Origin: Stutzerimonas stutzeri
GTDB lineage: Bacteria; Pseudomonadota; Gammaproteobacteria; Pseudomonadales; Pseudomonadaceae
Direction of reading: 5' to 3'
Assembly: GCF_024448985.1 (NCBI RefSeq)
Contig: NZ_JAMOII010000014.1
Span: forward strand, 30,797-94,796
DNA length: 64,000 bases
This document shows, one piece after another, positions 5,203 through 64,000 of the stretch. The translations under genes and the position numbers were made by a program. Under the pieces are notes generated by a model. That model saw nothing but the letters and a program-made list of their open reading frames with translations. It made no database searches and was not told the origin of the DNA. The stretch's first letter is position 1, and each line of letters begins with the position of its first letter.

Positions 5203-6636
5203 CGTCCCCCCCACCGTAATCCCGTCGATCTTCAGCGTCGGCTGTCCGACACCCACCGGCACCGATTGGCCGTCCTTACCGCAGGTGCCGACACCGCTGT
5301 CCAGTTCCAGGTCGGTACCGACCATCGACACCTTGTTCATCACATCCGGACCGTTACCAATCAGAGTCGCACCCTTCACCGGTGCGGTGATCTTGCCGTC
5401 TTCGATCAGATAGGCCTCGCTAGTCGAGAACACGAATTTCCCACTGGTGATGTCCACCTGCCCGCCGCCGAGACTCGCACAGTAGATGCCCTTCTTCACC
5501 GAGCGGATGATCTCTTCCGGGTCGCTTTCGCCCGCCAGCATGTAGGTGTTGGTCATCCGTGGCATCGGAAGGTGCGCGTAGGACTCACGCCGCCCATTAC
5601 CCGTAGGCGCAACGCCCATCAAACGCGCGTTGAGCTTATCCTGGATGTAGCCCTTGAGAATGCCGTTCTCGATCAGCGTGGTGCACTGGGTGGGCGTGCC
5701 CTCGTCGTCGACGCTCAGCGAGCCGCGGCGATGGGCCAGGGTGCCGTCATCGACGATGGTGCACAGTTTGGAGGCGACCTGCTGGCCGATCCGGCCGCTG
5801 TAGGCCGAACTGCCCTTGCGATTGAAATCGCCTTCCAGCCCGTGCCCGACCGCCTCGTGCAGCAACACGCCGGACCAGCCCGGCCCGAGCACGACGGGCA
5901 GGGTGCCGGCCGGCGCCGCCACGGCTTCGAGATTCACCAGCGCCTGCCTTAGCGCTTCGCGCGCATAGCCCATCGCGCGGTCTTCATTGAGAAAGTAGTC
6001 GTATCCGGTACGCCCACCGCCGCCCTGCCCGCCGCGCTCACGGCGTCCGTTCTGCTCGACGATGACGCTGACGTTGAAGCGCACCAACGGGCGAATGTCG
6101 GCAGCCATGCCGCCGTCCAGTCCCGCCACCAGAACATGCTCCCAAACACCGGCCAGGCTCACCGTCACCTGCTTGATACGCGGGTCCAGCGACCGTGTCG
6201 CGACGTCGATACGCTTGAGTAGCTCGACCTTTTCCGCCCGACCGAGCCCATCCAGCGGATTGTCCTGAACGTATAGCGGCGCGAAAGCCGCCTTCGACAG
6301 CACTTCGACACGGCCCTGCTCGCCACTGCGAGAGATCGAGCGGGCCGCTTCGGCTGCCTGGCGCAGCGCATCGGCAGTGATCGCGTTGCTGTAGGCGAAG
6401 CCTGTCTTCTCACCGGACAACGCCCGGACGCCCACGCCCTGCTCGATATGGAAACTGCCTTCCTTGACGATGCCATCTTCCAACACCCAAGACTCGGACA
6501 CCTGGTCCTGGAAATACAAGTCCGCGCCATCGATGCCGGGGCCGGCCAGTTCGCCAAGCAAACCTGGCAGGTCATCGAGCCCCAGCCCACCCGGTGTCAG
6601 CAGTCGCTCGGTGACGGGTAACAACAGTTCACTCAT
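5191..6636 (-). CDS. tldD: Metalloprotease TldD
   Basis: Catalytic subunit of the TldD/PmbA peptidase, 481 residues, the same length as the E. coli protein. The zinc-binding HExxH motif is at residues 260-264 ([13 protein letters not shown]). The ATG at 6636 is chosen from the family-like start [13 protein letters not shown]. The nitrilase-like gene ends 2 bp before it, so the two are translated from one message in the yhdP-nit-tldD series. The last residues (GGTGAA) are encoded next to an intergenic palindrome. Confidence 0.97.
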
Positions 6637-6638
6637 AT

Positions 6639-7484
6639 CTACTCCAAAGTGCCCGAGGCAATACGGGGCGCGCAGAATCGGCGATGACTCAGCACTGGCA
6701 TGCGCTGGCGCGTCGCAGCCTGTTCGGCCGCATCCCGCTTGGCAATCAATGCCGCCTCGCCAGTTGCCTGCTCGCTCAACACGCGCCCCCAGAAATCCAC
6801 GATAGACGAATGCCCGTGGGTCATTCGTCCGCCAGGGTGTTCGCCACCCTGGGCTGCAGCCAGCATATAGCATTGCGTCTCGATGGCCCGCGTACGTATC
6901 AACATCTCCCAATGAGCCTGACCGGTCACCTCCGTAAAGGCCGAAGGAGCGCTGATCAACTCGGCACCGTCCAGACGCAACGCCGAGTACAGCTCGGCAA
7001 AACGCAGGTCATAACAGACGGTCATTCCCAGCCGCCCCACCGGCGTGTCGACTACCACCAGCCGCTCACCCCCCGCATAGTCGTCCGACTCACGGTAGCG
7101 GCCTCGCGCATCGCTGACATCGACATCGAACAGATGCAGCTTGTCGTAACGCGCAGCGCGCTGCCCCTGATCGTCGACGAGCAATGAACAGGCCCTGACC
7201 TTCGCTTGTGGCTGATCATCCGGCGGCAACGGCAACGTGCCGGCGACGATCCATAACCTGAGGTCACGTGCGGTCTGTTTCAACCACGGCAGTATCGGGC
7301 CGACGCCCTCGGCTTCAGCCCTTCCGACTGCTGGTAGATCGGTCCGCCCCATGGCGGCGAAATTTTCCGGCAGCACCGCAAGCTTTGCCTCAGCCTCGGC
7401 GGCCCGTTCCAGCAGCCGCCTGGCAGTGGCGAGATTCGCCTGGATGTCGGCCTGACTGGTCATCTGGATAACGGCGAATGTCAT
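6639..7484 (-). CDS. Carbon-nitrogen hydrolase (nitrilase/Nit superfamily)
   Basis: 281-residue cytoplasmic amidase-like enzyme. The Glu-Lys-Cys catalytic triad of the nitrilase superfamily is present: E40 (LPENFAAM), K115 (RYDKLHLFD) and C157 ([10 protein letters not shown]). The sequence around the cysteine resembles the Nit1/omega-amidase-like branch, whose members repair deaminated glutathione or hydrolyse alpha-ketoglutaramate; the exact substrate is inferred, not shown. Start ATG at 7484 gives [10 protein letters not shown]. It lies between yhdP (38-bp gap) and tldD. Confidence 0.9.
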
Positions 7485-17361: not shown

Positions 17362-18813
17362 ATGCATCAACTGACCCTCGCCGAGATCGCCCGCGCCCTG
17401 GCCGACAAGCGTTTTTCCGCCGAAGAGCTGACTCGCTCGCTGCTCGAGCGCATCCAGACGCTCGACCCGCAACTGAACAGTTTCATCACCTTGACCGAAG
17501 AGCAGGCCATTGCCCAGGCTCAGGCGGCCGATGCACGTCGCGCCAATGGCGAGAATGGCGCGCTGCTGGGTGCGCCGATCGGTCACAAAGATCTTTTTTG
17601 TACCCAGGGGGTGCGTACCAGCTGCGGCTCGAAGATCCTCGACAGTTTCAAGTCCCCCTATGACGCTACCGTCGTCGAGCGACTCGCCGCAGCCGGAGCA
17701 GTTTCGCTGGGCAAGCTGAACATGGACGAATTCGCCATGGGCTCGGCCAACGAATCGAGCTTTTATGGCGCGGTGAAAAACCCTTGGGACCTGACCCGCG
17801 TGCCGGGCGGGTCCTCCGGCGGATCGGCCGCTGCGGTGGCGGCGCGCCTGATTCCCGCCGCGACCGGTAGCGACACGGGCGGCTCGATCCGCCAGCCCGC
17901 CGCACTGACCAACCTCACCGGAATCAAACCTACCTACGGACGGGTGTCGCGCTGGGGCATGATCGCTTATGCCTCCAGTCTCGATCAGGGCGGCCCGCTG
18001 GCCCGCACCGCAGAGGACTGCGCGCTGATGCTCGGAGCCATGGCCGGCTTCGACCCGAAAGATTCCACCAGCGTCGACCAGCCGCTGGACGATTACCTCG
18101 CCACCTTGAACCAGCCGCTCTCCGGCCTGCGCATCGGCCTGCCGAAAGAATACTTTGGCGAAGGCCTCGACCCCAAGATCGCCACTGCGGTAATGGCGAC
18201 GGTGGAAGAGCTGAAGAAACTCGGCGCTACGGTGAAGGACATCAGCCTGCCGAACATGCAGCACGCCATCCCTTCCTATTATGTGATCGCGCCCGCCGAA
18301 GCCAGCTCCAATCTGTCGCGCTTCGATGGCGTGCGTTTCGGTTATCGCTGCGAGAATCCATCGGATCTAACCGACCTCTACAAGCGGTCGCGCGCCGAAG
18401 GTTTCGGTGACGAGGTCAAGCGCCGGATCATGGTGGGCACCTATGCATTGTCCGCCGGCTACTACGATGCCTATTACCTGAAGGCGCAGAAGATTCGTCG
18501 CCTGATCAAGAACGACTTCGTTACTGCATTCGAGGAGGTGGATGTCATTCTCGGCCCGACCACGCCGAACCTGGCCTGGAAGCTCGGCGAAAAGAACGCC
18601 GATCCGGTCTCGGCCTATCTGGAAGACATCTACACCATCACCGCCAACCTCGCCGGCATTCCGGGTCTGTCCATGCCGGCCGGTTTCATCGACGGCCTGC
18701 CGGTGGGCGTGCAACTGCTGGCGCCGTACTTCCAGGAGGCGCGCCTGCTCAACGTGGCGCATCAATATCAGCAAGTCAGCGATTGGCACCTGCGCGCCCC
18801 GGCCGGATTCTGA
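17362..18813 (+). CDS. gatA: Asp-tRNA(Asn)/Glu-tRNA(Gln) amidotransferase subunit GatA
   Basis: 483-residue amidase subunit, releasing ammonia from glutamine for GatB. The Ser-cis-Ser-Lys triad is visible: K76 (GHKDLF), S151 (GGSSGGS) and S175 ([12 protein letters not shown]). Start chosen at the ATG at 17362, preceded by GAAGGA at 17350-17355 with 7-nt spacing; an earlier ATG at 17347 overlaps the gatC stop and would bury that site. It is followed closely by gatB. Confidence 0.96.
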
Positions 18814-18824
18814 GGAGATTGAAG

Positions 18825-20270
18825 ATGCAATGGGAAACCGTGATCGGGCTGGAAATTCACGCACAGCTCTCGACCCAATCGAAGATTTTCTCCGGTAGCG
18901 CCACCACTTTCGGTGCCGAACCCAACACTCAGGCCAGTCTGGTTGATCTGGGCATGCCCGGCACGCTGCCGGTGCTCAACGCCGAAGCCGTGCGCATGGC
19001 CTGCAAATTCGGCCTGGCGATCGATGCCGAGATTGCCGAGAAGAACGTGTTCGCGCGTAAGAACTACTTCTACCCTGACCTCCCCAAGGGCTATCAGACC
19101 AGCCAGATGGACCACCCCATCGTCGGCAAGGGTTTTCTCGACATCACCCTGGAAGACGGCACCACCAAGCGCATCGGCATCACCCGCGCCCATTTGGAAG
19201 AGGATGCCGGCAAGAGTCTGCACGAAGACTTCCACGGCATGAGCGGTATCGACCTGAACCGCGCCGGTACGCCGCTGCTGGAAATCGTCTCTGAGCCGGA
19301 CATTCGTTCGGCCAAGGAAGCGGTGGCTTACGTGAAGGCCATGCACTCGCTGGTGCGCTACCTGGGCATCTGCGATGGCAACATGGCCGAGGGTTCGCTG
19401 CGCTGTGACTGCAACGTCTCGGTACGGCCCAAGGGCCAGGCCGAGTTCGGTACTCGCGCCGAAATCAAGAACGTCAACTCCTTCCGCTTCATCGAGAAAG
19501 CCATCAATCACGAGGTGCAGCGCCAGATCGAACTGATCGAGGACGGCGGCACGGTGGTTCAGGAAACTCGCCTATACGACCCGAACAAGGACGAGACGCG
19601 CTCTATGCGCAGCAAGGAAGAAGCCAACGACTACCGTTACTTCCCCTGCCCCGACCTGCTGCCGGTGGTGATCGAGCAGAGCTTTCTCGACGATATCCGC
19701 GCCAGCCTGCCGGAACTACCGGTACAGAAGCGCGAGCGCTTCCAGCGCGAATTCGGCCTATCCGCCTATGACGCCGACGTCCTGGCTGCCAGCCGCGAAC
19801 TGGCCGATTACTTCGAGCAGGTCAATGCAACCTGCGGCGATGCCAAACTGTCGGCCAACTGGGTGATGGGCGAGCTGTCCAGCCTGCTCAACAAGGATGG
19901 GCTGGAGATCGACCAGTCACCGGTATCCGCCGTACAGCTGGGCGGCATGATCCTGCGCATCAAGGACAACACCATCAGCGGCAAGATCGCCAAGATGGTG
20001 TTCGAGGCCATGGCTGCCGGCGAAGGTTCGGCTGACGAAATCATCGAGAACAAAGGCCTCAAGCAAGTGACCGACTCGGGTGCTATCGAGGCGATGCTGG
20101 ACGAGGTGCTAGCGGCCAATGCCGAGCAAGTCGAGCAGTACCGCGCCAGCGACGAAGCCAAGCGCGGCAAGATGTTCGGCTTCTTCGTCGGGCAAGCGAT
20201 GAAGGCATCGAAAGGCAAGGCCAACCCCGGCCAGGTGAACCAACTGCTCAAACGCAAACTCGAGGGCTGA
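18825..20270 (+). CDS. gatB: Asp-tRNA(Asn)/Glu-tRNA(Gln) amidotransferase subunit GatB
   Basis: 481-residue kinase/transamidase subunit that phosphorylates the misacylated Glu or Asp and transfers ammonia to it. Starts [20 protein letters not shown], a family signature, after TGAGGAG; includes [11 protein letters not shown] and the C-terminal YqeY-like tail domain ending VNQLLKRKL. Eleven bases separate it from gatA, so gatCAB is one operon. Presence of GatCAB implies indirect Gln and/or Asn charging. Confidence 0.97.
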
Positions 20271-59457: not shown

Positions 59458-59658
59458 TTATTCGGCCTTGTATTTGGCTGAGTAAATTCGGCCCCACGGC
59501 TCTTCTTCAGGCTTTTTATTCCGCTCGAAAGAGCGCGTCACGACTATGGCGAAACGGGTTAAATGATCGTAAGGGATGCGAATCGGCCCTACGCCTACCG
59601 CAAAACGGCGCTCCTTCTGAAAGGCATATTCCTTCGTTTCACAACCGATCCAAAGGGC
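59458..59658 (-). pseudogene. Open C-terminal fragment next to intI, no start codon
   Basis: A minus-strand frame opens after a TGA at 59659-59661 and runs about 66 codons to a TAA at 59458-59460. The first possible GTG is far inside. The peptide (KEYAFQKERRFAVGVGPIRI, then DHLTRFAIVVTRSFE) looks coding-like but I do not recognise it. It overlaps the last 18 bp of intI in another frame, so it may be the tail of a gene cut when the integron settled. Confidence 0.45.
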
Positions 59659-60574
59659 TCAATACCGCAAGGCCGCCACGATTGAGCACATGGGTGTAAA
59701 TCATCGTTGTCTTTACATCAGCATGCCCCAGCAGCTCCTGCACGGTGCGAATGTCCTGCCCGCTTTCCAACAAATGAGTGGCAAAGCTATGCCTCAAGGT
59801 GTGCGGTGTTGCCGGTTTGGAGATACCAGAAGCTTTTACGGCACGCTTGAATGCGCGCTGGACCCGCTTCTCGTCAAGGTGGTGCCGGCGCACCGCGCCA
59901 CTGCGCGGATCTACCGAAAGGCTGGACGCCGGAAACACATACTGCCAAGCCCAATCCCAAGGCGCTCTAGGGTATTTGCGAGCCAGAGCATCGGGCAGAT
60001 AGACATCTCCTCTGCCCTCGGATAACTCCTGATCATGGATGGCCCGAGTACGGGCAATGTGCTGTTTGAGCGGCCCGACCAAACTTGCAGGCAGTATAGT
60101 AACGCGGTCCTTCTGTCCTTTACCGTCTCGGATGACGATCTCGTTACGAGAAAAATCGACGTCCTTCACGCGGAGCCGAATGCCCTCCATCAAACGCATG
60201 CCACCGCCGTACAGAAGCCGCGCAACGAGCCCAACCGGCCCATCCAGCAACCCGAGTATCTGATGCACCTCCTCCATGGAGAGCACCACAGGTAACCGGG
60301 CCGGCTTCTTGGCACGCACGACTTCGCCCAACCACGGCAGGTCTTGTTTAAGGACTTGTTTGTAAAGAAACAGCAATGCAGCGAGCGCCTGGTTCTGCGT
60401 CGAAGCCGAGACGTCCCGGCGAATAGCAAGGTCGGAAAGAAAGGCTTCTACCTCTGGCGCACCCATATCAACCGGGTGCCGGTATTCGTGAAAACGGATG
60501 TAACGCTTAACCCACTCGCAATAGACACGCTCAGTTCTGATCGAGTAGTGTTTAAGCCTGATCTGCTCACGCAC
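59639..60574 (-). CDS. intI: Integron integrase IntI (5' end apparently frameshifted)
   Basis: 311-residue tyrosine recombinase as drawn from GTG at 60574. Catalytic set present: R127 ([13 protein letters not shown]), K155 region (GKGQKDR), H258/R261 ([13 protein letters not shown]), H284 (LLGHADVK) and Y293 nucleophile (IYTHVL). The IntI-specific insert near residues 195-215 ([19 protein letters not shown]) separates it from XerC/D. The best start, ATG at 60603-60605 with an AGGAG site, is one base out of frame with it; an extra base near 60585-60592 would explain this. It points away from the cassettes, as usual. Confidence 0.93.
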
Positions 60575-60607
60575 CTGATCCAGTAAAACTCGGCTTCCCT
60601 TCCATGA

Positions 60608-60626
60608 TGTATAACTCCTTTATACA
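60608..60626. promoter_or_regulatory. Inverted repeat over the intI ribosome binding site
   Basis: TGTATAACTCCTTTATACA has perfect 7-bp arms (TGTATAA / TTATACA) and its five-base centre is the complement of AGGAG, the apparent intI Shine-Dalgarno. In the transcript this would put the site in a hairpin loop; as DNA it could be an operator. The spacing does not fit a LexA box. Confidence 0.5.
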
Positions 60627-60679
60627 GTTTTCATCCGTCGAAACCGCCCAGCCTAGACAAGGACATCCTCAATGGCAAG

Positions 60680-60743
60680 AAACGTTATACACCAAGCCCG
60701 CTCGGCGTCTTATGCACCAGTTGGTGTCTAATTATAGTTAGCC
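60680..60743. other. attI region and first cassette junction
   Basis: The intI/cassette-1 interval must contain attI. GTTAGCC at 60737-60743 is the likely integration core, because the R'' core of cassette 1 (CGCTAAC at 61308-61314) is its reverse complement at six of seven positions. A small palindrome CACCAGTTGGTG lies just before (60712-60723). The left limit of attI is approximate. Confidence 0.55.
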
Positions 60744-60788
60744 AATAGCCAAATAAGATTCCAGCCATACATACCAAGAAGCGATCCG

Positions 60789-61283
60789 ATGCTTGAAGCA
60801 ATAATAGAACACTCATCAATGCTGGTCGCTATCTTGGCTCTAATTGCAAGCCTCGCAGCTAATAGCACTGCTCATAAAGCCCATCGTTTAAATGAGAAAA
60901 GCGCAGCCTCTGCTGCTCGACTGTTAGTCCTCGAACGCAAGAGAGAACTGCTTATGGAGCTTGATAGGCAGCGTGCAACTCTAGATCGGTTAAAGTTTGT
61001 AATGGAATGTGAAGAGGTAATCATAAGCTCCAATCCATTACTGCAAAAAATCATCCCTGATGAACTTGATCGCCTTGCCAACAACATCAGCATGGTTAAC
61101 CACTTTTTATCAGCATATGACAGCCAGCGAACCGCAATAGAATTACTTTCAGAAGAAAGTGATGCTGGTGAACTAGATATGAAGCTAGCTGACTTACGGC
61201 GTCTAACAGTGCATTTTGAAAAAGACATAGAGCAAGAGAAATCCCTTCTTGAACAGCGCAAAAGCTTAGAGCGCGGAGAGTAA
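60789..61283 (+). CDS. Cassette 1: TM plus coiled-coil protein, unknown function
   Basis: 164 residues: one N-terminal hydrophobic segment (MLVAILALIASLAA, about 11-24), then a long helical, charged stretch (about 35-160) likely to form coiled coils; a membrane-tethered helical protein of unrecognised family. Low GC and codon use differ from the chromosome, as expected for a captured cassette. Weak ribosome binding site. First in the array, so likely the best expressed if a cassette promoter is present. Confidence 0.75.
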   Translation: MLEAIIEHSSMLVAILALIASLAANSTAHKAHRLNEKSAASAARLLVLERKRELLMELDRQRATLDRLKFVMECEEVIISSNPLLQKIIPDELDRLANNISMVNHFLSAYDSQRTAIELLSEESDAGELDMKLADLRRLTVHFEKDIEQEKSLLEQRKSLERGE

Positions 61284-61307
61284 AGGGTTTACACATACTA
61301 CGTTACA

Positions 61308-61383
61308 CGCTAACAAATGGTTCAAACCGTTCGCTACGCTCACTGGGACGGGCTAAAGCCCGCCCCTTAACCAAACTTTATGC
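61308..61383 (+). other. attC site 1 (variant crossover core)
   Basis: 76 bp from CGCTAAC to TTTATGC. Interior as in the other sites (GGTTCAAA, then the palindromic GGGCTAAAGCCC). The R' core starts TTT instead of GTT: the G at the crossover is replaced by T at 61377. Strand exchange at this site is therefore likely poor. Confidence 0.85.
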
Positions 61384-61395
61384 CAAGGACAGACA

Positions 61396-61962
61396 GTGAA
61401 AAAATTTCTGCAGGATAATTTCCCAAGAATTGACCCTAGTCCATTCTTTATCTGGGCAATTGGATCCTCTGCAATATATCAACTCCCAATAAACGGCGTG
61501 GAGAGAGCTTTTCTTGAAAATAACGCGACAATTATAAATCTAATATTTGGAGCTGTTATTTCAGCTGCCTTCGCCGCGCTACTTATAATCCTTCTTCTTT
61601 TCTTAAGCAGCCAAAATAGAATATTTTCATACGCGCACTGGATCTCGAAATTATTCTCCGACACAGCTCTCGGATCAGCAGGCTTCATATTCTCAGTAGA
61701 ACTACTGATAAATAATGACTGGGAGCACGCAGCATATCTTTCACTGACAATTATTTTATACGTCATTCTAATCAATCATTTATTCATGGTCGTTTTTGAT
61801 GACAATACCGGCACTCTAAAGCTAGTGAAATCCATTGACCGATGTTCAGATACAGAAATACCGTCAAGAGAGATACACATAAAAACCATGGCTTTCGCAG
61901 TGATTGTCTCCTGCTTAGTGGCGGCAGGGATACTTTTCAACATTTCACAATTAAAAGCATAA
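61396..61962 (+). CDS. Cassette 2: multi-spanning membrane protein, unknown function
   Basis: 188 residues with four or five hydrophobic segments (INLIFGAVISAAFAALLIIL, AAYLSLTIILYVILINHLF, MAFAVIVSCLVAAGILF among them) and a short cytoplasmic loop with charged residues. GTG at 61396 follows AAGGA at 61384-61388. AT-rich. No family recognised. Its TAA lies inside the attC R'' core. Confidence 0.78.
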   Translation: MKKFLQDNFPRIDPSPFFIWAIGSSAIYQLPINGVERAFLENNATIINLIFGAVISAAFAALLIILLLFLSSQNRIFSYAHWISKLFSDTALGSAGFIFSVELLINNDWEHAAYLSLTIILYVILINHLFMVVFDDNTGTLKLVKSIDRCSDTEIPSREIHIKTMAFAVIVSCLVAAGILFNISQLKA

Positions 61963-62032
61963 CAATTGGTTCAAATCGCTCACTTCGCTCGCTGGGACGG
62001 GCTAAAGCCCGCCCCTTAACAAAACGTTATAG
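61957..62032 (+). other. attC site 2
   Basis: 76 bp from GCATAAC to GTTATAG. R'' core GCATAAC is the exact reverse complement of GTTATGC, that is, of cassette 2's own first bases with a normal G. Central stem GGGCTAAAGCCC as in the others. Confidence 0.88.
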
Positions 62033-62066
62033 GCCCAAGCTCATACTGCAGGTATCGGAGCCTTTG

Positions 62067-62375
62067 ATGATTGCAAAACAAAAATACGGCGAACTAGTTT
62101 CCATATCTAAAAGGGCTTCAGATGCCCAAGACGCCAATATAATAGTCCACGAAATCCCCAAAACTGGGACAACGGTTATCGGAGAATCGAATTACATGCT
62201 GCTCAACTGTAAATATACAGATGAGCAAGGCGACTCCGTGGTGTTTCACTATCGGTCATATGACCCATCAGGCCCATTTCAAAATTTACCAGACATTAAT
62301 AAATTCAGGGTTGAGCTTTGGGTGGATGGAAAGCTATTGGAGCTCTTTGAAGATAGTTTCGATGACCCACGATGA
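62067..62375 (+). CDS. Cassette 3: small soluble protein, unknown function
   Basis: 102 residues, no membrane segment. Mixed alpha/beta appearance with a conserved-looking FRVELWVDGKLLELFED end and HYRSYDPSGPFQNLP. CGGAG at 62056-62060 precedes the ATG by six bases. No family recognised. Confidence 0.75.
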   Translation: MIAKQKYGELVSISKRASDAQDANIIVHEIPKTGTTVIGESNYMLLNCKYTDEQGDSVVFHYRSYDPSGPFQNLPDINKFRVELWVDGKLLELFEDSFDDPR

Positions 62376-62377
62376 AG

Positions 62378-62453
62378 CTATGACAATCGGTTCAAATCGT
62401 TCGCTTCGCTCACTGGGACGGGCTAAAGCCCGCCCCTTAACCAAACGTTAGCT
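62378..62453 (+). other. attC site 3
   Basis: 76 bp from CTATGAC to GTTAGCT. R'' core CTATGAC differs by one base from CTATAAC, the complement of cassette 3's first bases; the change puts G in the conserved AAC triplet. Confidence 0.87.
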
Positions 62454-62469
62454 TTTTCACGGAGAATTT

Positions 62470-63162
62470 ATGCCAAAAAATACGGATATTGCAGCTATCT
62501 TAGGTAAGGGTTTAGTCGGAGCGATTCCGTTTGTTGGTCCATTGGCTGCAGAGATTGTTGGTGCAATAATACCGAACCAAAGAATTGATAGAATTGAATC
62601 CCTGCTAAAACTTCTCGAAGCGAAGATCGCCGAAGACGAAAAATCAAAAGTTGAAGAAAAAATCGTTACTCCCGAATCAGTAGATCTGATCGAGGATGGA
62701 TTTCTTCAAGCCGCCAGGGCCCTAAGTGAAGAAAGAAAAGACTACATAGCCTCACTTCTCAAAAACAGCCTTACGAATGACCGCCTAGAATATATTGAGA
62801 ATAAACGGCTGCTATCTATACTTGGTCAACTTAATGACCTAGAAATAATAATATTGAAATCCTATACGCTGCATCACGGAGAACCAGACTCCGAAGAGTT
62901 TTTTAAGATACATCAAGACTCATTGCAGCCACCAGGCGCCGTCCTTGGGTCTACTCAAGAAGATTTAGACAAACACGTTCTCCACCAAACCCATAAGACT
63001 CATCTTGCAAGCCTGGGATTATTACGACCAGGATTTAAGAGAGCAAGAAAAGGTGAGCTACCAGAATTTGACGATAAGACGGGCATGATAAAAGCCAATG
63101 GCTATTCAATCAGTCCTCTTGGTCGGTTACTGCTCCGAAGCATTGACCAAATTAATGAGTAA
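62470..63162 (+). CDS. Cassette 4: protein with glycine-rich hydrophobic N-terminus, unknown function
   Basis: 230 residues. Residues about 9-35 form a Gly/Ala-rich hydrophobic hairpin (LGKGLVGAIPFVGPLAAEIV, then GAIIP), followed by a helical charged region (RIDRIESLLKLLEAKIAEDE) and a larger soluble domain with a short winged-helix-like end (NGYSISPLGRLLLRSI). Such hydrophobic N-termini occur in pore-forming or membrane-inserting effectors, but I do not recognise the family. AT-rich. Confidence 0.78.
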   Translation: MPKNTDIAAILGKGLVGAIPFVGPLAAEIVGAIIPNQRIDRIESLLKLLEAKIAEDEKSKVEEKIVTPESVDLIEDGFLQAARALSEERKDYIASLLKNSLTNDRLEYIENKRLLSILGQLNDLEIIILKSYTLHHGEPDSEEFFKIHQDSLQPPGAVLGSTQEDLDKHVLHQTHKTHLASLGLLRPGFKRARKGELPEFDDKTGMIKANGYSISPLGRLLLRSIDQINE

Positions 63163-63164
63163 TA

Positions 63165-63240
63165 AGCTAACAAGTGGTTCAAATCGTTCGCTGCGCTCAC
63201 TGGGACCGGCTAAAGCCGGCCCCTTAACCAAACGTTAGAC
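63165..63240 (+). other. attC site 4 (compensated stem)
   Basis: 76 bp from AGCTAAC to GTTAGAC. The central stem is ACCGGCTAAAGCCGGC instead of ACGGGCTAAAGCCCGC: both arms changed together, so base pairing in the folded bottom strand is kept. R'' AGCTAAC is the exact complement of cassette 4's first bases. Confidence 0.9.
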
Positions 63241-63256
63241 ACTGCAAGGAGCTTAT

Positions 63257-63694
63257 GTGAGTACTTCAACGAAGGATCGTGCCACAGCTGTAGCAACCCC
63301 AGTCGTGTTTTTAGTCGCATCTTATGTGCTCACGCCCTGGTTAATGTTGATACTCCTTCCATTCCTGTACTTCATTTACAGGAAGTTATCGTTAAATTTA
63401 GCTAAAAACGTAGCGCTGAGGCTTTTTGACCTGGCAATCTCGTTAATTCTAATCTTTATATGCGGAGGATTAATAATCGCCGCGCTTTCAATAGTTGCGC
63501 GAGATGGTCAATTCACTATTCCACTTATATCAGACGGATCAATAATTTCGATCTGTTCTTTTTTCGCAAATATCTACCTAACCGGAAGCTGTCTTTTGCT
63601 CAGTGCAAAGTCGTTTCATGTAAAGAAGCACATGCCTAAGCTTTCAATGGGGATTTTTGAAGCACTGAGGGGCAAGCGCGTACACAGTGTCTAA
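63257..63694 (+). CDS. Cassette 5: membrane protein, unknown function
   Basis: 145 residues with about four hydrophobic segments (PVVFLVASYVLTPWLMLILL, FDLAISLILIFICGGLIIAA, SIISICSFFANIYLTGSCLL). GTG at 63257 follows AAGGAG at 63246-63251. The stop codon (TAA, 63692-63694) lies in the attC R'' core. No family recognised. Confidence 0.75.
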   Translation: MSTSTKDRATAVATPVVFLVASYVLTPWLMLILLPFLYFIYRKLSLNLAKNVALRLFDLAISLILIFICGGLIIAALSIVARDGQFTIPLISDGSIISICSFFANIYLTGSCLLLSAKSFHVKKHMPKLSMGIFEALRGKRVHSV

Positions 63695-63764
63695 CAGCCG
63701 GTTCAAACCATTCGCTCCGCTCACTGGGACGGGCTAAAGCCCGCCCCTTAACCAAACGTTAGAG
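63689..63764 (+). other. attC site 5
   Basis: 76 bp from GTCTAAC to GTTAGAG. R'' GTCTAAC is the exact reverse complement of cassette 5's first bases (GTTAGAC). Stem and flanks match sites 1-3. Confidence 0.9.
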
Positions 63765-63812
63765 CCACGGAAGGAATACTGCGTCGTTTCCATCGACTGG
63801 CCGCTGAGTACC

Positions 63813-64000
63813 ATGACCATCCCCATACCCACCGCCTCGATTGATACACAGCTATCTCAGGCTCGCGCTGTCATAGAACGCCACCTAGCACCATCGCTAC
63901 TGGCCATACACCTGTTCGGCTCCGCGCTGGATGGTGGTCTGAAGCCGTACAGCGATATCGATCTGCTGGTTACCGTGCGCACGCCACCCGACGAAGCCAT
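63813..64000 (+). CDS. Cassette 6 (partial): AadA-type aminoglycoside nucleotidyltransferase
   Basis: 62 residues are visible before the window edge. AadA-like ANT(3'')(9) start: VIERHLAPSLLAIHLFGSAL and LDGGLKPYSDIDLLVTV, including the nucleotidyltransferase GSxxDGGxxxxSDxD active-site pattern. Full AadA proteins (about 260 residues) adenylylate streptomycin and spectinomycin. The N-terminus differs from the common class 1 integron aadA genes as I recall them, so this may be a divergent chromosomal relative. Activity cannot be judged from a third of the gene. Confidence 0.88.
   Translation, partial: MTIPIPTASIDTQLSQARAVIERHLAPSLLAIHLFGSALDGGLKPYSDIDLLVTVRTPPDEA

Follow-up and report, generated by a model that had tools for sequence, protein, structure and literature searches.

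A sedentary integron of Stutzerimonas stutzeri with five unrecognised cassettes, one of them a candidate Abi_alpha-related abortive-infection gene

Introduction

What do the cassettes of a chromosomal integron encode when their products reach no described family, and is any of them a defence gene? The question is raised by the end of a 64,000 nt stretch of DNA from Stutzerimonas stutzeri (hereafter, the window), where an integron with five complete cassettes, C1 to C5, is located. Most integron cassettes are of unknown function, and the first-pass annotation of this DNA had suggested that one or more of the five might represent a new defence function. This suggestion was partly sustained for C4 (sub-threshold similarity to the abortive-infection family Abi_alpha, restriction-modification (R-M) genes at 4 of 20 related loci, and cassettes in more than one genus) and weakly for C3, and nothing in its favour was found for C1, C2 and C5. 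The reading that we favour, with a probability of about 45%, is that the product of C4 is a membrane-associated abortive-infection effector, encoded by a single gene and related to Abi_alpha by a homology that stays below the family threshold. In the following, L and G numbers denote individual loci and genomes, respectively.

Results

The C4 family and its relationship to Abi_alpha

The cassette in question is the fourth of the array:

62448..63234, plus strand: cassette C4; open reading frame (ORF) 62470-63162, 230 aa, Abi_alpha-like candidate effector

The predicted layout of the C4 protein comprises an N-terminal hydrophobic part, the motif IPNQRxDR, a helical region, and a C-terminal winged-helix-like part. 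The hydrophobic hairpin that had been assigned to its N-terminus is a single hydropathy segment (residues 7-25), which appears as two predicted helices (4-18 and 23-33) in a low-confidence part of the structural model. This model, built from 19 sequences, has a mean pLDDT of 76, with values under 50 for residues 1-19, and a pTM of 0.69. Its helical portion extends to about residue 181, and the winged-helix-like part forms the end.

Searches for remote homology and structural similarity, which the first-pass annotation had recommended, yielded a sub-threshold link of C4 to Abi_alpha and no Foldseek match at E 0.001. Two relatives of C4 (L044 and L053) match Abi_alpha (PF14337) over the full length at 27.7 and 25.6 bits, the gathering cut-off being 29. 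In profile-profile comparisons, C4 was matched to Abi_alpha with P 8.9e-4 (probability 23%) when two members were used and with P 0.014 (3.2%) when six were used, versus P 0.75 for the control. Weak matches to NF045477 (LPO_1073/Vpar_1526 domain) were obtained for 12 of 19 C4 relatives (best E 0.004), far under the 45-bit cut-off of that model, and the window protein itself scored 12 bits. The best viral model retrieved by Foldseek, A0A291AUV8, is nameless (E 0.038, TM 0.40), and the best hit of the C4 profile among PDB sequences was a ribosomal protein (E 0.05, not significant).

Abi_alpha, also known as DUF4393, includes a member that, in the account given in PMC6356687, was tested for abortive infection in Enterococcus faecalis prophage 6. 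Going by that account, C4 resembles this family in the order of its parts, namely, an N-terminus that varies, a helical middle and a C-terminal part that may be similar to PDB 3h35, and also in being a mobile single gene with relatives on viral contigs. In contrast to Abi_alpha, C4 falls below the family cut-off, combines an N-terminal hydrophobic stretch with the IPNQRxDR motif, and has an integron cassette as its carrier. As an abortive-infection effector, C4 would sense something produced during phage infection with its C-terminal part, the N-terminal hydrophobic part would then perturb the inner membrane, and the cell would die or lyse before phage is made.

A different reading makes C4 a membrane-tethered winged-helix transcription factor, which would serve mobile elements as a regulator or accessory by controlling neighbouring or host genes, and would not be a killer. 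PDB 3h35 is one among several winged-helix entries of like Z for the C4 model. However, middling Z scores for winged helices are common according to the tool's own note, no constant regulatory partner was seen, since 16 of 20 loci lack a nearby R-M gene, and the conserved hydrophobic N-terminus of C4 is, to our knowledge, unusual among membrane-tethered winged-helix regulators. We regard this explanation as unlikely.

Distribution of C4

The C4 family was detected at 18 loci in 84,980 genomes, by a scan with one conserved peptide pattern, so that relatives without IPNQR are missed. These loci belong to Pseudomonadota, Thermodesulfobacteriota, Bacteroidota, Planctomycetota and Lentisphaerota. 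Within the class, three of 368 genomes besides the window's own carry the family, one of them weakly. Apart from a copy with 98% identity, the nearest relatives (65-70%) are found in Nitrosomonas, Sedimenticola, a Desulfuromonadaceae metagenome-assembled genome, Marinomonas and Rheinheimera. In a tree of 21 sequences (without L059), the window protein and those of L041 to L046 form one group with support of 100/98; on this tree, the clustering of cassette and R-M labels does not exceed that of shuffled labels (271 and 285 of 500 shuffles were as low). Two relatives on viral contigs were recovered with an alignment as the query, and none with a single sequence.

C4 is a cassette in two Stutzerimonas genomes. 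To judge by attC-like flanks, its relatives are probably cassettes in several other genera as well, and for Marinomonas (L045) this assignment is secure on its sequence: attC-like sites are present on both sides of the gene (detector scores of 12 downstream and 8 upstream) and recur, together with a repeated 79-nt element. In Spongiibacteraceae (L055), attC-like sites on both sides were recognised by eye (score 7). One downstream site in Sedimenticola (L043; score 8.5) and half a site in Nitrosomonas (L042) are based on reading of the sequence. A score of 11.5 at L047 was set aside by eye as a long G+C-rich hairpin. These values are to be read against the performance of the two detectors, which lacked sensitivity and had limited specificity: the first recovered a single window site out of five and let 26 of 300 random stretches past its threshold of −0.3; the second gave scores of 5-7 to three window sites and of 1 to a fourth, left the fifth unscored, and among 2000 random stretches assigned 7 or more to 34 and 10 to none.

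The Marinomonas locus bears on another alternative, in which C4 is half of a toxin-antitoxin or stabilising function that guards arrays from loss, an anti-phage effect being absent or secondary. Integrons often hold low-G+C single-gene cassettes of unknown role, and toxin-antitoxin cassettes are known among them; furthermore, a RelB/RelE-like pair, recognised by sequence only, follows just downstream of the C4 relative in L045. Yet the C4 cassette has space for one long ORF only, and no partner gene is conserved beside the C4 relatives in 16 loci. A toxin-antitoxin or stabilising role is improbable in our view.

Neighbourhoods of C4 relatives

Co-occurrence with defence genes was the second check that had been proposed. 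R-M genes are present within 4 kb of the C4 relative at four of 20 loci (L037, L056, L050 and L044), and none in the other 16; given that the queries were drawn from the same loci, these counts are a description and not an unbiased test. The 20 loci exclude short or weak matches (L018, L019, G088/L030 and G315/L039), a viral contig (L060) and an integron array (L041), and L050 and G282 count as a single place. At a distance of 4-10 kb, R-M genes were found at one of 19 loci, again L056.

At L037, a type III operon that includes a RhuM/Fic gene has the C4 relative between its Mod and Res genes. At L056, the relative has a type I restriction-like gene (named from sequence) on one side and, on the other, an OLD-like ATPase/TOPRIM gene adjoined by a specificity-like gene. 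The distances are 0.7 kb to MmeI at L050 and 2.2 kb to type I genes at L044. Two additional features of these loci are that the L037 relative (L037:7275-8576) has about 195 extra N-terminal residues without a notable Pfam match, and that the C4 relative of L044 is succeeded, about 46 bp on, by a dCTP-deaminase-like ORF and then by a MazG-like one (L044:10736-11895; both named from sequence).

PADLOC models were matched 349 times by 145 ORFs near the C4 relatives versus 88 times by 139 ORFs far from them (E 1e-10), totals that are inflated by proteins matching many overlapping models and come without locus names, so that no locus count was drawn. The mad2 matches were equal in both sets (3 versus 3), and the far set includes GajB-, DndA- and SspA-like matches.

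Several observations count against an abortive-infection role of C4. The window protein itself has no match to Abi_alpha up to E 1, the 16 loci without an R-M gene within 4 kb form the large majority, and most C4 relatives have no attC-like flank. The last point partly amounts to the broad conservation outside integrons that the first-pass annotation had named as contrary evidence, although the family is rare.

The same observations touch the explanation that C1 to C5 are ordinary accessory genes with unrelated or niche roles (surface, transport or stress) and no part in defence, the R-M neighbourhoods being due to chance in mobile regions. The 16 loci are consistent with it, as are the membrane proteins C1, C2 and C5, which have no known relatives, and the PADLOC results: none of C1 to C5 and one of 29 other cassettes of related arrays was matched. 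On the other side, two C4 relatives (L037 and L056) lie inside R-M operons and not merely near them, the Abi_alpha matches of L044 and L053 are full-length, if sub-threshold, and about one in ten Vibrio cholerae cassettes is anti-phage by the figure given in PMC12409362. This explanation is the foremost of the alternatives and, in our judgement, still a rather unlikely one.

The abortive-infection reading of C4 can be extended to a wider proposal: C4 could represent an undescribed, portable one-gene family, related to yet distinct from Abi_alpha, which spreads among distant bacteria in the form of a cassette and has also become part of R-M loci (type I, type III and MmeI-type), where it would be a fail-safe for when restriction fails. 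We advance this proposal tentatively, and with less confidence than the role of C4 as such.

The integron and its array

The elements surrounding C4 are the following:

59639..60574, minus strand: intI, integron integrase, 311 aa
60690..60744, plus strand: attI region (outer limits approximate), crossover G|TT between 60737 and 60738
60738..61377, plus strand: cassette C1; ORF 60789-61283, 164 aa, N-terminal hydrophobic segment, then coiled-coil-like, no family
61310..61381, plus strand: attC1, base 5' of the crossover is T
61378..62026, plus strand: cassette C2; ORF 61396-61962 (GTG start), 188 aa, three hydrophobic segments
61959..62030, plus strand: attC2, direct repeat
62027..62447, plus strand: cassette C3; ORF 62067-62375, 102 aa, soluble, motif SYDPSGPFQNLPDIN
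62380..62451, plus strand: attC3, direct repeat
63167..63238, plus strand: attC4, direct repeat
63235..63758, plus strand: cassette C5; ORF 63257-63694 (GTG start), 145 aa, three hydrophobic segments
63691..63762, plus strand: attC5, direct repeat, last attC of the array
63784..64000, plus strand: 3' chromosomal flank shared with G042; AadA-like (ANT(3'')) ORF from 63813, broken off by the contig end

The integrase reaches 496.6 bits with NCBIfam TIGR02249 ("integron integrase", cut-off 265). An integrase, an attI with its crossover and an array of a single type of attC are all present, and the integron with five complete cassettes, as it had been annotated, is indeed there; together, these elements occupy window positions 59639-63762. 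The crossover points are 60737|60738, 61377|61378, 62026|62027, 62447|62448, 63234|63235 and 63758|63759, resulting in cassette lengths of 640, 649, 421, 787 and 524 bp for C1 to C5. The five attC sites form 82-nt direct repeats with 78-87% identity to the reference copy, spaced by 649, 421, 787 and 524 nt, and 57 of the 88 columns of their alignment are invariant across all five. At the attC1 crossover (window 61377), T precedes the cut, versus G in the other four sites; this T might hinder excision of C1, and a locking of C1 in the array would be a guess. The low G+C content noted for the cassettes was confirmed, with 38.6-43.2% for their ORFs versus 61.8% for window positions 1-59000.

A covariance model of attC was trained on the five window sites, which match it by construction. 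It detected the same type of site in two related loci: L014, the array of G016, has 22 sites, all on the same strand, and a single weak match in the opposite orientation (E 0.036), and L027, the array of G042, has six matches at E 0.1. In seven other loci, at E 0.1, one site was found in the plasmid integron L010 and none in the remaining six. The Rfam scan of the window gave no match, and the promoter scan gave 7 sites versus 5.9 expected, none of them immediately 5' of C1.

The contig ends where the window ends, and the AadA-like ORF at 63813 was considered as a sixth cassette. It was rejected, because G042 carries the same stretch behind a different array, which identifies it as the 3' chromosomal flank; since the next ORF is this shared flank, the five cassettes are the entire array.

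The same integron place in related genomes

Both flanks are common to the window and G042, a genome of the same genus. The left flank is 95% identical at the DNA level as far as attI, the right one 96.3% over window 63784-64000, and IntI is 99% identical. The integron thus has a fixed chromosomal place in both genomes, in agreement with its annotation as sedentary. In G042, C2 is joined straight to attI (...ATAG|TTATGCC...) and is followed by other cassettes; the window reads ...ATAG|TTAGCC [C1] ...AAACT|TTATGCC.... Because C2 is directly at attI in G042, the two genomes differ by exactly one cassette, C1, gained or lost at G|TT. In both (window 63813-64000 and L027:11862-12665), the chromosomal flank of the integron contains an AadA-like (ANT(3'')) ORF.

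In G016, a large array lies beyond a sorbosone-dehydrogenase-like gene, on the other side, and intI is on a separate contig; the integron place therefore differs within the genus. This array contains one 125-aa cassette twice, with identical protein (L014:15429-15806 and 18544-18921), and at its far end a transposase-like fragment (L014:6629-7132; IS110-like, named from sequence). Among 29 ORFs of the G016 and G042 arrays, the one PADLOC match was to PDC-S43 (E 1.9e-50), in a cassette that is not among the ten scanned singly. Of 56 genomes of the genus, with the window's own counted in, 34 have IntI matches (E <= 1e-60); identities are 51-100%, and several of the matches are partial or broken.

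The chromosomal integrons of the Pseudomonas stutzeri group (Holmes et al. 2003, as cited in PMC3108266) are described there with the features also seen here: intI on the minus strand beside attI, one type of attC of 70-76 bp, and promoterless, low-G+C cassettes. Relative to that description, the window array is short (five cassettes), and its cassettes are undescribed as far as searched. The integron is an ordinary chromosomal one of the Stutzerimonas (former Pseudomonas stutzeri) kind, with an array altered in recent evolution.

The other four cassettes

The first-pass annotation had called all five cassettes unrecognised, and this stands. C1 to C5 all stay below the curated cut-offs of Pfam and NCBIfam, and PADLOC 2023 gives no match to any of them up to E 10. 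Clear matches to housekeeping families, named beforehand as evidence against a defence role, were looked for in Pfam and NCBIfam and did not occur, and housekeeping roles were accordingly dismissed. For the protein types assigned at that stage, hydropathy gives one N-terminal segment for C1, three each for C2 and C5, none for C3, and one for C4 in place of the hairpin, as described above.

Across 116 relatives including the window's own genome, C1 is present in 1, C2 in 2, C3 in 1, C4 in 3 (one at E 8.7e-4) and C5 in 3. Plasmid records contain C4 (three) and C3 (six) and no relative of C1, C2 or C5; viral contigs contain no relative of C1, C2, C3 or C5.

C1, C2 and C5 are predicted membrane or membrane-anchored proteins. 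No relative of C1 was found in 115 other genomes, plasmids or viral contigs. Its assignment as a SLATT domain was rejected (NCBIfam NF033634, 14.1 bits, E 0.033, versus a cut-off of 41), as was kinship with the transmembrane/coiled-coil proteins L014:11476-11991 and L054:9227-9913 (best E 0.077 without composition correction). C2 occurs elsewhere in G042 alone among the genomes searched, with 99.8% identity over 652 nt. C5 has two homologues in the genus with 38-39% identity, both of which keep the C-terminal FEALRGKRV, and one distant relative in 219 class genomes. One genus homologue (L029) has a decayed attC of the window type just downstream (E 7e-9), and the other (L028) a weaker one past the next ORF (E 5e-5).

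The homologues of C3 are encoded by six plasmid records and by G413, and the motif SYDPSGPFQNLPDIN is common to C3, the plasmid proteins of Vibrio, Pseudomonas and Janthinobacterium, and G413. The relative on a Vibrio parahaemolyticus plasmid (L015) is a cassette in a repeat array, with five 77-nt copies and six copies of a 35-nt end, which we take to be of the Vibrio attC kind. In G413 (L040), the C3 homologue follows 110 bp after genes for ThiF (E1), UQ_con (E2), Prok-JAB and PLD on the same strand; the E1-E2-JAB-PLD set and then the homologue occupy L040:7616-11463, with a SLATT-like ORF (named from sequence) close by, at 6221-6859. The linkage to E1, E2 and JAB genes, as in ubiquitin-like conjugation (Bil-like) systems, was found at this one locus; it was seen neither in the window nor in the annotated surroundings of L015, L016 and L017. 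A single linkage does not make a system; at most, a role of C3 as a small accessory in other defence loci may be suggested, weakly. C3 was not accepted as a ubiquitin-like protein, the PDB profile match to SUMO2 being not significant (E 0.087), and its single-sequence structure (mean pLDDT 43) was not used.

Discussion

A close parallel to the possible role of C4 is offered by the anti-phage cassettes that PMC12409362 and PMC12444791 describe for Vibrio integrons (work of Darracq et al. and Getz et al. 2025). Compared by these descriptions only, they too are small, contain a single gene of unknown family and reside in a chromosomal integron; unlike them, the window array is known here from sequence alone. 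No paper joining Abi alpha (in two spellings) and "integron" was found; subscription journals were outside this search, so that we do not claim C4 to be unpublished.

As integrons and cassettes go, this integron and its remaining four cassettes are ordinary. Should C4 protect against phage, the defence genes that are carried by integrons and passed between unrelated hosts would include one for an Abi_alpha-like protein. The same gene would then exist both as a free cassette and as part of R-M operons, and integrons would be tied directly to defence islands.

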